Below, one piece after another: positions 53,892-60,437 of a stretch of DNA of 64,000 nucleotides. Source of the DNA: Pseudanabaena mucicola FACHB-723 (GTDB taxonomy: Bacteria > Cyanobacteriota > Cyanobacteriia > Pseudanabaenales > Pseudanabaenaceae). Both the position numbers and the translations under genes were made by a program. The stretch spans positions 18,424 through 82,423 of the forward strand of contig NZ_JACJQB010000013.1 in the NCBI RefSeq assembly GCF_014696385.1, given 5' to 3'. Each line of letters begins with the position of its first letter. Within the stretch, counting starts at the first letter, position 1. Under the pieces are notes generated by a model, which did not search any database, had not been told where the DNA came from, and worked only from the letters and a program-made list of their open reading frames with translations.

Positions 53892-56024
53892 GTGAGAGTT
53901 CCCCTAGACTGCTACCGCATCCTTGGTCTGACGCATCTATCAGGGATAGAAAAGATCCATCAAGCACATCGCGATCGCCTACTCTCTATGCCAAGGCGAG
54001 AATATTCTGATGCAGCGATCTCTTCCCGTAAGCGCATTATTGACAAAGCCTATGAAGCCTTGATCGAACATGATCGCCTTGGTAGTAATGCAAATGCCGA
54101 TGATGTCACTGATGCAGTCGAGAACGCTCGCCCATCCTTAACTCTGCCACCGCAAATTGAAGCTGATGAAAAGGATTTTGCCGGTTTATTACTGATTTTG
54201 TATGAGCTTGGCGAGTCTGAGCGAGTTTTAGCCCTTGCCAAACCCTACTATGACCCTGATGAGGCGGAATATCAGTCAGCCAGAATCTCTCCCCACGATC
54301 CTGACTTATTGCTTTCTGTATCCCTAGCATATTTAGATCTGGGTCGTGAATGTTGGAAGCAGGGCAAATATGAGGCGGCGGCGGCATCCCTAGAAGCGGC
54401 CCAAGAGATTTTATTGCGGGAAGGCTTATTTCTGAGTATTCGCAGTGAAATCCAAGCTGATCTGTTTCGCCTACGCCCCTATCGTATCCTTGAATTGTTG
54501 GCGACTCCTGACAATCAGGCTAACGAGCATCGCAAAGGGATGTCACTCTTGCAAGAGATGCTGGATGCAAGGCGTGGTATTGATGGTTCAGGCAATGACT
54601 ATTCCAGTCTGGGAATTGATGATTTTCTGCGATTTATTCAGCAACTACGCAGTTATATGACTGCGATGGAGCAGCAAACTTTATTTGAAGAAGAAGCGCG
54701 TCGTCCATCCTCAGTGGCGACCTATTTGGCTGTATATGCTCTAATTGCGCGGGGGTTCTCGCAACGTCAGCCAGCCTTAATTCGCCGTGCTAAGGGTTTA
54801 TTGGTAAAACTTAGTGCGAAACAGGATATTTATCTCGAAAAAGCAGTTTGCGCTTTGTTGCTAGGGCAGACGGAAGAAGCTAGCACTGCGATCGAAAATA
54901 GTGCTGAAGAAGATCAGATTGCTTTTATTCGCCAAAATTCTGAGGGTGCGCCCGATCTGCTCCCTGGATTATGTCTCTATAGCGAACGCTGGATGCAGGA
55001 GGAGGTATATCCCCATTTCCGTGATCTGATGCACCAAATTGTATCGCTTAAGGATTATTTTGCTGATGAGCAGGTGCAGGCTTATCTCGAAGAACTGCCT
55101 AATACTGGGGCAATGTCATCGGAATGGACTTCGCCTGTTGGTGGTAGTCGTTTTGCTGGGATATCCTCCTTTAATGAGGCGGATGATCGCGATGCTGATT
55201 CTGTGTCTAGTCGTGAACCGAGACTGTCTACTTACGAGCCTGAGACTCCCAATCGATTTGAGCGATCATCAGCACCTCTACTAAATCGCTCAAGTCCTGC
55301 TAATCGAGATCATCCCTCCCGCTCTCGTCGTACTTCGACTACTGTTAAGAATGCAACGAAAAATATTGTTGACAATGTTAAGGAAAAAAAGCAGTCATCG
55401 CGTAAGTCTGCGCCTAGTAGCACCCATGGAAAACCGAAGTTTAAGGTTGAGCGACTAGCAACGGTGATTGTTCTTGCGATCGCAATTTTAGTTGGCTCAA
55501 TTTGGTTAGTGGTTTTGGCAGTACGCGCCTTAATGGGCGGCTCAAACTCAGAGAGTTATGTGGCAATGGAAAAGCCTATTGCTTCACTAGTTCAGGAAAT
55601 TAGTAAAAATACCGCAACGTCTCCTGTCGCGCAACCTGGCCCCCTTGATAAGGAAACGGCTATTAAAATAATTGAAACTTGGCAAGTAACTAAAGCTAAA
55701 GCTTTGGGCAAGGACTATGAGGATAAGTTGCTATTAGAAATTCTCGATGAGCCAGCGCTGAGTGATTGGCAAGGACGAGCCAATGATCTCAAATCTAGCA
55801 ATTCCTATTTGCAATACGAAACTAAATCTAGTGAAGTGCAAGAGGTGATTCCCGATGGTGATAACAAGGCGAAGGTCGTCGTTAATATCTCCGAGTCTCG
55901 TAATTATTTTAACAATGGTGAACTGGATCGAGATGCATCTGCGGAGAATGCTAATTACAAAGTTGAATATGACTTAATCCGCAAAAATGACAAATGGTTA
56001 ATCCGTGAGATGTTGGTCTTTTAG
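53892..56024 (+). CDS. zipN: Cell division protein ZipN/Ftn2 (ARC6 homologue)
   Basis: Inner-membrane organiser of the FtsZ ring, specific to cyanobacteria and plastids. 710 residues from GTG 53892 (MRVPLDCYRILGLTHLS). Order: J-like domain 1-60 (LDCYRILGL...DKAYEALI, without the catalytic HPD), helical middle region about 90-400 (LLLILYELGESERVLALAKP), Ser/Arg-rich linker about 425-515, one membrane helix about 520-545 (LATVIVLAIAILVGSIWLVV), and a C-terminal IMS/DUF4101 domain about 590-710 (IIETWQVTKAKALGKDYEDK). Full length. Confidence 0.93.
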   Translation: MRVPLDCYRILGLTHLSGIEKIHQAHRDRLLSMPRREYSDAAISSRKRIIDKAYEALIEHDRLGSNANADDVTDAVENARPSLTLPPQIEADEKDFAGLLLILYELGESERVLALAKPYYDPDEAEYQSARISPHDPDLLLSVSLAYLDLGRECWKQGKYEAAAASLEAAQEILLREGLFLSIRSEIQADLFRLRPYRILELLATPDNQANEHRKGMSLLQEMLDARRGIDGSGNDYSSLGIDDFLRFIQQLRSYMTAMEQQTLFEEEARRPSSVATYLAVYALIARGFSQRQPALIRRAKGLLVKLSAKQDIYLEKAVCALLLGQTEEASTAIENSAEEDQIAFIRQNSEGAPDLLPGLCLYSERWMQEEVYPHFRDLMHQIVSLKDYFADEQVQAYLEELPNTGAMSSEWTSPVGGSRFAGISSFNEADDRDADSVSSREPRLSTYEPETPNRFERSSAPLLNRSSPANRDHPSRSRRTSTTVKNATKNIVDNVKEKKQSSRKSAPSSTHGKPKFKVERLATVIVLAIAILVGSIWLVVLAVRALMGGSNSESYVAMEKPIASLVQEISKNTATSPVAQPGPLDKETAIKIIETWQVTKAKALGKDYEDKLLLEILDEPALSDWQGRANDLKSSNSYLQYETKSSEVQEVIPDGDNKAKVVVNISESRNYFNNGELDRDASAENANYKVEYDLIRKNDKWLIREMLVF

Positions 56025-56134: not shown

Positions 56135-57094
56135 TCATGGATTTGCGATGATCGCAGGATCTTCTTGCAGGTTAACTACTAATACGCGCACTTTAGAATT
56201 CTTCGTGGCAATGTCTGAATCCACAGGATCGTCTTCATTTTGTTTTAAGTCAAGTTTTAAGCCTAGAAATCCTAATGATTGACAAATAAGTTCGCGGATG
56301 ATTTCTGAGTTCTCACTTAATTCTGACGTAAATACAATCGCATCCATTCCCCCCAAGCTCATGAGCATAGAACCAAGGCATGACCGCAAACGATGAATGT
56401 AAATATCCAAAGCTTGCTTTGCCCGAGAGTTATCTGTATCAATCGCCGAGCCTACTGATTTTGGATCATTGGATTTGTGATCACTTCCTTGCTTTGATGG
56501 CTCATCAGGGTTATTGTCCTGTCGCATCATCTCATTTAAAACATCAGTATCAACTGAGCCAGAACTATAATCAATCATCAAACCTTCTAAAGGCGTAAAT
56601 CCAGTAGCTGTATCGATAATTTGACCATTGTGAATGGCAGCAAGAGAACAACCGTTATCCAAATTGCAAGTAATTAACCGCAAATTTTTAATATCTCTCT
56701 GTAAGACTTCGGCAGATCGCTGAGCGCAATAATAGTGGCTGCTTTCATTTAGTCCATAATGGCGATTATCAACTGCTGTAGGAGGACTGGAAATTGTCGC
56801 AATAGTCACTAAATTCTTGGGACTAGTAGTGATAAGTTTATCGTTAATATCAGGCTCTTCACCTTCTAGAGGTGTGATAATCGCGATTTCTTGCCAATCT
56901 AAGTCTAACCTTTCGCAAATTTCAAAAAATGTATAGCGCTCAACTGGTTTTCCCGCAAAAAAACGCCAAATTGATTGCCGTGTTTTTAGACCCACCTCTT
57001 CTGCAAGGTAATCTTGAGTCCAACCCTTATTGGCAAAACGCTTTTTAGCTTTTTTGATGCCTGCTGCTGAGGCTGTTAATGATCGCTTAGCGAT
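56135..57094 (-). CDS. HTH domain fused to a degenerate acetate kinase C-terminal half; apparent ATC start
   Basis: Read from 57094 the frame gives 319 residues. Residues 1-70 match the cyanobacterial HTH module usually beginning MAKRSLTAS (here IAKRSLTAS, with GWTQDYLAEEVGLKTRQSIW and FAGKPVERYTFFEICERL). Residues about 110-319 align closely with AckA encoded at 59229: HYGLNESSHYYCAQRSAEVL versus RYGFHGISHQYCSDRAAQLL; LITCNLDNGCSLAAI versus LITCHLGNGCSLAAI; GFTPLEGL identical; MDAIVFTSELSENSE versus LDAIVFTAGVGENAP. Catalytic His (FH to LN, CHL to CNL) and Arg (GSRSG to DYSSG) are lost, so kinase activity is improbable. AGGAG (57108-57104) lies 9 bases before ATC, and TAG is in frame just upstream. 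A GTG at 56995 would give 286 residues but cut the HTH. Confidence 0.72.
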   Translation of the reverse strand: MAKRSLTASAAGIKKAKKRFANKGWTQDYLAEEVGLKTRQSIWRFFAGKPVERYTFFEICERLDLDWQEIAIITPLEGEEPDINDKLITTSPKNLVTIATISSPPTAVDNRHYGLNESSHYYCAQRSAEVLQRDIKNLRLITCNLDNGCSLAAIHNGQIIDTATGFTPLEGLMIDYSSGSVDTDVLNEMMRQDNNPDEPSKQGSDHKSNDPKSVGSAIDTDNSRAKQALDIYIHRLRSCLGSMLMSLGGMDAIVFTSELSENSEIIRELICQSLGFLGLKLDLKQNEDDPVDSDIATKNSKVRVLVVNLQEDPAIIANP

Positions 57095-57156
57095 AACGGC
57101 AAACTCCTATTTATACTTTGAAATAATTAGCTAAACATAATTAAAACCAAAAATCA

Positions 57157-59228: not shown

Positions 59229-60437
59229 ATGAAAATATTAGTTCTCAATGCTGGTTCGAGTAGCCAAAAGAGTTGCTTGTATGATTTAGCCGACGGGCTG
59301 CCCAGTTCTGCTCCTGAACCGCTTTGGGAAGCTGCCATAGATTGGACACACCATGATGATTTTGTGGAGATTAAGATCAAAACTCATGATGGCAAAGTTT
59401 TGCAAGAAGATCTGAAGGCGACTTCCCGACCTGAAATCATTGCCCATATGTTTGAGACTTTATGGAGTGGTGATACTGCGGTGGTGAGCAGTCCTGCGGA
59501 AATAGATATGATTGGGCATCGGGTGGTGCATGGTGGTGCAGAGTATCGCCAAAGTAAGATTATTGATGATGTGGTCAAAGCTGCGATCGTAAAGTTAGCA
59601 TTGTTTGCACCAGTACATAATCCTGCGAATTTGGAAGGAATTGAAGCTGCCGAGCAGGTATTTGGAAAGACTCCTCAAGTGGCAGTATTTGATACTGCTT
59701 TTCACTCCCATTTGTCTCCTGATGCATATACCTATGCCATTCCCCAGCGATATACAGAACAAGGAATTCGTCGCTATGGATTCCATGGCATTAGTCATCA
59801 ATATTGCAGCGATCGGGCGGCGCAGCTTCTTGATCGGAAACTGGAAGATCTAAAACTAATTACTTGTCATTTAGGGAATGGATGTTCCCTAGCCGCAATT
59901 CGCCATGGGCGCAGTATCGATACAACCATGGGATTTACTCCCCTTGAAGGTTTGGTGATGGGAAGTCGCTCAGGTTCTATTGATGCAGGGATTCTCATTC
60001 ATTTGTTGCGTCAACCTGATATGGATGTGGAGAAGCTGGATCGTATTCTCAATCGCGAATCTGGCGTGAGGGGAATATCGGGAATATCGGGGGATTTGCG
60101 TTCAATCCTGAAGGAAATTGCGGCGGGAAATGCACAGGCACAATTGGCTTTTGATGTGTATGTCCATAGCTTGCGATCGCATATTGGCGCAATGCTAGCT
60201 AGCCTTAGTGGTTTAGATGCGATCGTATTTACCGCAGGTGTCGGTGAAAATGCGCCTACGATTAGGGCGGCGGCCTGTGCGGGATTTGAGTTTTTAGGGC
60301 TGAAATTGGATAGTAATAAGAATAATCAAAGATTATTAGATGTTGATATTGCTGCACCTGATTCGTCGGTGCGTGTTCTCGTGATTCATACCCAAGAGGA
60401 TTGGGAAATTGCCCGTGAATGTTGGCATTTACGCTGA
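59229..60437 (+). CDS. ackA: Acetate kinase
   Basis: Reversible ATP + acetate to acetyl phosphate + ADP. 402 residues, both ASKHA halves intact: LVLNAGSSSQKSCLYDL with N7, HRVVHGGAEY with the substrate-binding Arg/His, FDTAFHSHLSP, RRYGFHGISHQY with catalytic His, CHLGNGCSLAAI, GSRSGSIDAGI with catalytic Arg, FTAGVGENAP and the C-terminal TQEDWEIA Glu. It is the intact counterpart of the degenerate domain encoded at 56135-57094. pta is not nearby. Confidence 0.97.
   Translation: MKILVLNAGSSSQKSCLYDLADGLPSSAPEPLWEAAIDWTHHDDFVEIKIKTHDGKVLQEDLKATSRPEIIAHMFETLWSGDTAVVSSPAEIDMIGHRVVHGGAEYRQSKIIDDVVKAAIVKLALFAPVHNPANLEGIEAAEQVFGKTPQVAVFDTAFHSHLSPDAYTYAIPQRYTEQGIRRYGFHGISHQYCSDRAAQLLDRKLEDLKLITCHLGNGCSLAAIRHGRSIDTTMGFTPLEGLVMGSRSGSIDAGILIHLLRQPDMDVEKLDRILNRESGVRGISGISGDLRSILKEIAAGNAQAQLAFDVYVHSLRSHIGAMLASLSGLDAIVFTAGVGENAPTIRAAACAGFEFLGLKLDSNKNNQRLLDVDIAAPDSSVRVLVIHTQEDWEIARECWHLR

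Follow-up and report, generated by a model that had tools for sequence, protein, structure and literature searches.

What does a gene do that fuses a helix-turn-helix (HTH) module with one half of an acetate kinase, has lost catalytic residues of that enzyme and has no canonical start codon where its first domain begins? Such a gene lies on the minus strand at 56135..57094 of a 64,000-nucleotide stretch of Pseudanabaena mucicola FACHB-723 (contig NZ_JACJQB010000013.1, positions 18,424 to 82,423; hereafter the window), where one open frame of 319 codons plus stop encodes an HTH module, a linker and acetate kinase domain II. We propose that the product is a scarce, dimeric DNA-binding regulator, built from a NACHT-type HTH and domain II of a dead acetate kinase and translated from an AUC, AUU or AUA codon. 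We give this reading a probability of roughly 0.45.

Architecture, distribution and selection

An XRE-like HTH module forms residues 1-72 (56879..57094, on the minus strand like all parts of the gene) and corresponds to the N-terminus of cyanobacterial NACHT-type proteins. It is followed by a variable linker (residues 73-110, 56765..56878) and by acetate kinase domain II with a replaced active site (residues 111-312, 56159..56764). The window protein matched PF00871 with 168.8 bits (Pfam cut-off 22) over its C-terminal half only, along profile positions 173-391 of 392, and reached 172.7 bits against TIGR00016, below the curated cut-off of 293.4. Its HTH scored 16.4 bits against XRE/HTH_3 (PF01381), below the gathering cut-off of 23; the module has a lambda-repressor-like helical fold and may bind DNA in a sequence-specific manner. 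An AlphaFold model of the single chain, based on a 98-row alignment, had a mean predicted local distance difference test score (pLDDT) of 77.8 and a predicted template modelling score of 0.56, with low confidence at residues 78-107; it supersedes a 29-row model in which the HTH was poor and mean pLDDT was 56.9. The HTH is joined to an ASKHA-fold body of one ASKHA domain only: the two-domain layout with PHOSPHATE1 in domain I is absent, and Pfam did not match domain I in the window protein. These results bear out the description given by an earlier, sequence-only reading of the window, an HTH module followed by an acetate kinase half with lost catalytic residues, the replacements being common to all 16 orthologues described below.

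The full fusion was found in 16 of 58 genomes, the source genome included: 15 come from the 26 Pseudanabaena genomes and one is Synechococcus sp. PCC 7502 (G027). These are 16 of the 38 genomes of the order and 16 of a class sample of 388 genomes, in which up to five candidates were scored per genome; all 16 belong to one family, and matches outside it were to the kinase half only. A scan of named genomes gave ten full fusions among 80 loci kept of 137 relatives, and coordinates and leaders identify these with ten of the 16; carriers include Pseudanabaena biceps PCC 7429, P. frigida ULC066bin1 and Phormidium tenue FACHB-1050. One further genome (G022) retains just the 3' part of the gene, in a frame of 164 codons (L042, L025), flanked by three gene clusters that also lie beside the intact gene of genome G012. 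This remnant is an in-place loss of the 5' part of the fusion gene.

Whole-gene ratios of nonsynonymous to synonymous substitution rates (dN/dS) were 0.10-0.29 in nine orthologue pairs. The corresponding ratio of mean proportions (mean pN/mean pS) over 120 pairs was 0.27 for codons 2-31, 0.20 for codons 32-72 and 0.69 for the linker, and within the kinase half 0.15 (codons 109-192), 0.49 (193-222) and 0.14 (223-308). Single short segments were higher in some pairs, such as the linker of L013/L014 (2.6) and codons 193-222 of L002/L004 (1.05). Purifying selection acts on both domains of the fusion. The search of cyanobacterial genomes that the sequence-only reading had called for has now been run, and 16 genomes of one family with dN/dS of 0.10-0.29 contradict the picture of a solitary, decaying gene that would have spoken against it.

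The codon at the beginning of the frame

The codon at the beginning of the module, 57092..57094 in the window, is ATC in ten orthologues, ATT in five and ATA in one (collectively ATH, or AUH in the message). Between the upstream stop and this codon no in-frame ATG, GTG or TTG is present in 14 of the 16, and in 11 an in-frame stop stands at most six codons upstream; L008 and L009 have distant upstream in-frame starts. In the window a Shine-Dalgarno-like AGGAG (57104..57108) lies 9 nt before the ATC and overlaps an in-frame TAG stop (57107-57109). Among the orthologues the AGGAG is exact in 11 leaders and a one-base variant in five, 6-9 nt before the ATH codon. The A and T of this codon are invariant in 16/16, as are several positions just after it, and none of the 24 preceding positions is invariant. 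A canonical start is therefore wanting, an alternative codon is conserved and a good Shine-Dalgarno sequence is present, the one exception within the clade being the database protein P0003 described below. We infer from these leaders that translation initiates at the AUH codon.

Other proteins carrying the same module serve as a control, and in 75 of 76 loci they have ATG at the homologous place. Of 78 control loci, 76 matched the pattern (L082 and L090 were missed); 73 showed ATG directly, L072 and L092 did so after a slipped pattern was corrected by eye, and L097 has ATA at this place with an in-frame ATG upstream. With L054, L056, L057, L067 and L068 set aside as second copies, the count is 70 of 71 distinct loci. 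Together with an ATG start of infC in each of the 26 Pseudanabaena genomes searched (L123-L148), this control rejects a non-ATG habit of the whole genus. As a separate observation, infC starts with ATT in E. coli versus ATG in Pseudanabaena, and autocontrol of initiation factor 3 (IF3) through AUU seems to be absent here. An upstream start followed by readthrough or frameshifting was rejected in view of the stops within six codons in 11/16, and inspection of the 60-nt leaders by eye revealed no common upstream ATG in another frame. All three ATH codons encode isoleucine and could in principle be internal; this is disfavored in most orthologues because a stop stands just upstream.

In a database set of 62 proteins the first 48 clusters are fusions or fragments of them, and the called start is the GTG at codon 34 in 24 clusters, further downstream in ten, at codon 6 in six, upstream in five (all with isoleucine at the ATH position) and exactly at the ATH position, as methionine, in three (P0003, P0045 and P0047). 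P0003 sits in the main fusion clade, and P0045 and P0047 are diverged. Gene callers can hide such proteins: 34 of the 48 clusters are annotated from codon 34 or beyond, so that the HTH is truncated or missing, and the names seen at the source read hypothetical protein or acetate kinase. In the window the codon-34 GTG (56993..56995) lies within the HTH.

Kinase half, its origin and its neighbors

In the numbering of Methanosarcina acetate kinase, five residues are replaced in all 16 orthologues (H180 to N, H208 to N, G210 to D, R241 to S and G331 to E), as is G239 to D in 15. N211 is retained in seven, D283 varies and R285 is K or R in 14; H184, G212 and P232 are kept, as is N335 in 15. Changes at N211, G239 and G331 are reported to lower the activity of a real acetate kinase 6- to 200-fold (PMC4390882). 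A variable, gap-rich stretch (residues 193-222, 56429..56518) takes the place of LOOP4 with its Mt D283 and R285. The ligands suggested by the sequence-only reading lose ground here. Sensing of ATP or ADP at the old site is unlikely because G210D, G239D and G331E add acidic side chains to the phosphate loops, and sensing of acetyl phosphate or acetate in the old cleft is unlikely because domain I, which made up half of that cleft, is missing.

The 16 kinase halves form one clade (support 100/100). Together with a second acetate kinase type, AckA-2, from Pseudanabaena sp. ULC068bin1 (G010), they split from the other 35 AckAs (100/95; roots drawn at midpoint), and with database proteins added, fusions and AckA-2-like proteins split from 15 other AckA rows (100/98), the AckA-2-like kinases P0049-P0060 falling on the fusion side. 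The fused half is thereby shown to descend from an AckA lineage (AckA-2) other than that of the adjoining gene, and descent from the neighboring AckA by tandem duplication is rejected by both splits. That neighbor is an ordinary full-length ackA of 402 aa (59229..60437, plus strand) which keeps its domain-II catalytic residues and did not give rise to the fused half. The link drawn earlier between the two genes does not hold as one of source, nor is their proximity conserved: in the 15 other fusion genomes they share a contig in six, at least 91 kb apart, and lie on different contigs in nine. Each of the 16 genomes has one ordinary AckA, and full-length AckA-2 was not found in any of them.

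The AckA-2 of G010 (L017:796-2178; also L149 and P0051) is itself unusual. This full-length acetate kinase keeps its domain-II catalytic residues, is the closest to the fused half among 36 genomic AckAs and has about 50 extra residues in domain I, which carry two EF-hand calcium motifs (Pfam EF-hand_5, E 8e-10). The idea that it may respond to calcium would be worth a test. The same genome has a third acetate kinase-like gene (G010:C1:91289-92209) with 39% identity to AckA-2.

The long helix at residues 223-250 (56345..56428) is strongly preserved and includes the dimer-axis positions equivalent to R309, K312 and Y313 of Salmonella AckA. That enzyme is reported to dimerize mainly via domain II and to bind citrate in an interface pocket formed by R178, D227, M230, R309, K312 and Y313 among others (PMC3475010). 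The fusions retain the equivalents of D227, T228 and R309, have H for R178 and, in 15, T for M230, and agree with AckA-2 at S238 and C239. The helix is on average 85% identical to AckA-2 versus 55% to the resident AckAs, and is closer to AckA-2 in 16/16; over residues 138-172 the fusions are no closer to AckA-2 (0.80 vs 0.78; 8/16). The R309 position is R in all 16 fusions and S in 15 of the 16 resident AckAs. The dimer helix is preserved while the active site is rewritten.

P0045 and P0047 are diverged fusions of 330 aa (51% identity) that begin with MSKRSL. Their kinase half begins at a similar place, and by eye H180 and H208 are kept and the R241 equivalent is lost; they may represent a decay intermediate or a second, parallel fusion. 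Both fall outside the main clade in trees, yet a single origin is still compatible (p-AU 0.355 for the kinase half and 0.414 for the HTH, for a group named after the proteins had been seen). In the tree of the module, the HTH of the fusion groups on a branch (96/97) made up mainly of Pseudanabaenaceae, with two rows from Microcoleus metagenome-assembled genomes. A NACHT-NCH2 protein (L032) begins with this module, and a P-loop is visible by eye in 8/8 relatives read. The source genome has another copy of the same HTH (L031:888-1127, minus strand, G000:C8) in a frame open for 337 codons versus about 770 in most relatives, which looks broken.

A conserved operon was rejected. In 14 stretches from 14 genomes (the window, the ten named copies, G002, G027 and G022), with neighbors compared as clusters without names, no cluster was common to more than five; L047 and L052 have common flanks, and one downstream gene recurs in five. 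In the window an ARC6-type plastid/cell-division gene (53892-56024, plus strand; Pfam ARC6 and ARC6-like_IMS) converges on the fusion gene.

Possible function and comparison with known systems

The regulator proposed in the sequence-only reading stands as the best reading of a conserved, selected and non-catalytic fusion. In the mechanism we favor, domain II, the part that holds real acetate kinases together as dimers, would still pair two subunits, so that two HTH modules on flexible linkers would lie next to each other on DNA. The pocket on the dimer axis, and not the old active site with ATP, may take up a small anion or metabolite that sets DNA affinity. With a good Shine-Dalgarno sequence in front of it, the AUH codon would initiate under the restraint of IF3, as in infC and sigR; the resulting low output would leave the regulator scarce and could couple it to the IF3 level. 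A bolder extension, which we regard as doubtful, is a new class of one-component regulators in which AUH and IF3 fidelity, and perhaps a carbon-metabolite anion, set a gene programme of Pseudanabaena.

The competing explanations differ in what they take the gene to be. That it is a pseudogene or an assembly artefact might be thought from the missing canonical start and the 3' remnant in G022, but the frame runs uninterrupted from the ATH codon onward in 16 genomes, and with the dN/dS values above we give the idea next to no credence. Translation from an internal GTG, TTG or ATG, leaving an acetate kinase-like fragment with the upstream similarity as a relic, would agree with database starts at codon 34 (24/48), further downstream (10) and codon 6 (6), the last being a TTG in L011 and L012. 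We hold it improbable: codons 2-31 show the substitution pattern of coding sequence (pN/pS 0.27), the codon-34 GTG is missing in 4/16 orthologues, the first canonical start of L014 lies about 170 codons in, and the AGGAG-like element stands before ATH. A live remnant, still binding ATP or ADP or working with a split domain I, would account for the kept G212, P232 and N335 (15/16), yet domain I is absent, H180, G210, R241 and G331 are fixed as N, D, S and E, D283 is variable and the TIGR00016 score is far short of its cut-off; we consider this very improbable.

Two further explanations concern partners. Pairing of the half with full-length AckA via domain II could bring the HTH to the enzyme or lower its activity; AckA dimers form mainly through domain II (PMC3475010), all 16 genomes have one ordinary AckA, and the diverged fusion P0045 and AckA P0056 both have 18059 as longest contig and may be neighbors. 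Such a mixed dimer, also raised by the sequence-only reading, is less likely than a homodimer because the preserved interface helix is that of another AckA lineage, and the S of resident AckAs at R309, the lack of full-length AckA-2 and the distances in the six relatives with both genes on one contig also tell against it; overall we think it unlikely. Alternatively the HTH may bind the matching module of NACHT-type proteins instead of DNA, as adaptor of a NACHT (STAND) conflict system. The identity of the module with the N-terminus of L032, the P-loops of the eight relatives and the Pseudanabaenaceae branch are consistent with this, but in G015 (99% complete) the fusion is the sole match to the module at E 1e-3, and PADLOC gave no match for the window protein at E 0.01, making such an adaptor rather improbable; a conflict system may yet lie among the neighbors, which were compared as unnamed clusters.

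In the openly licensed literature searched (titles and starts of abstracts) we found no description of an HTH-acetate kinase fusion and nothing on ROK/ASKHA repressors; Pseudanabaena with acetate kinase returned glacier metagenomics only. Acetate kinase is unmentioned in the main text of a 2020 conflict-systems paper (PMC7159879). On the bolder reading, the fusion would be a cyanobacterial regulator whose AUU/AUC/AUA start extends across the lineage and which has escaped notice as annotation cuts into its DNA-binding domain. It would be a case of a metabolic enzyme turned likely regulator, with half discarded, the active site rewritten to fixed residues and the dimer helix kept. It also presents a near-cognate start conserved in nature and cleanly paired with a built-in control, the same module under ATG, and makes IF3-gated expression in cyanobacteria directly testable.

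Compared with AckA (PF00871, TIGR00016), the fusion lacks domain I (PHOSPHATE1, R91, H123), has H180, H208 and R241 replaced and has an HTH added. Cyanobacterial NACHT-type proteins share its N-terminal module (about 57-75% identical, in long frames of about 775 codons) but start with ATG, in contrast to the ATC, ATT or ATA of the fusion, and where tested (L032) continue into a NACHT ATPase and NCH2 tail in place of the kinase half. Conserved starts outside ATG, GTG and TTG are reported for infC (ATT/ATC) and for sigR, which has GTC in 32/34 Streptomyces and GTT in two, a strong ribosome-binding site and repression by IF3 (PMC5472188). The fusion resembles both in its conserved start and sigR in the strong site preceding it; IF3 repression, demonstrated there, is proposed here for an AUH codon and an unrelated protein. 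The ROK repressors NagC, Mlc and XylR also place an HTH, of the winged type and not XRE-like, before an ASKHA-fold body with no role, or only a minor one, as a kinase. The ROK domain (PF00480) was not among the two Pfam matches of the window protein at E <= 1. The plan is nevertheless alike, an HTH with a body resembling a sugar kinase in ROK, and the fusion has reached it separately from acetate kinase, with half a kinase only and one domain in the body versus two.
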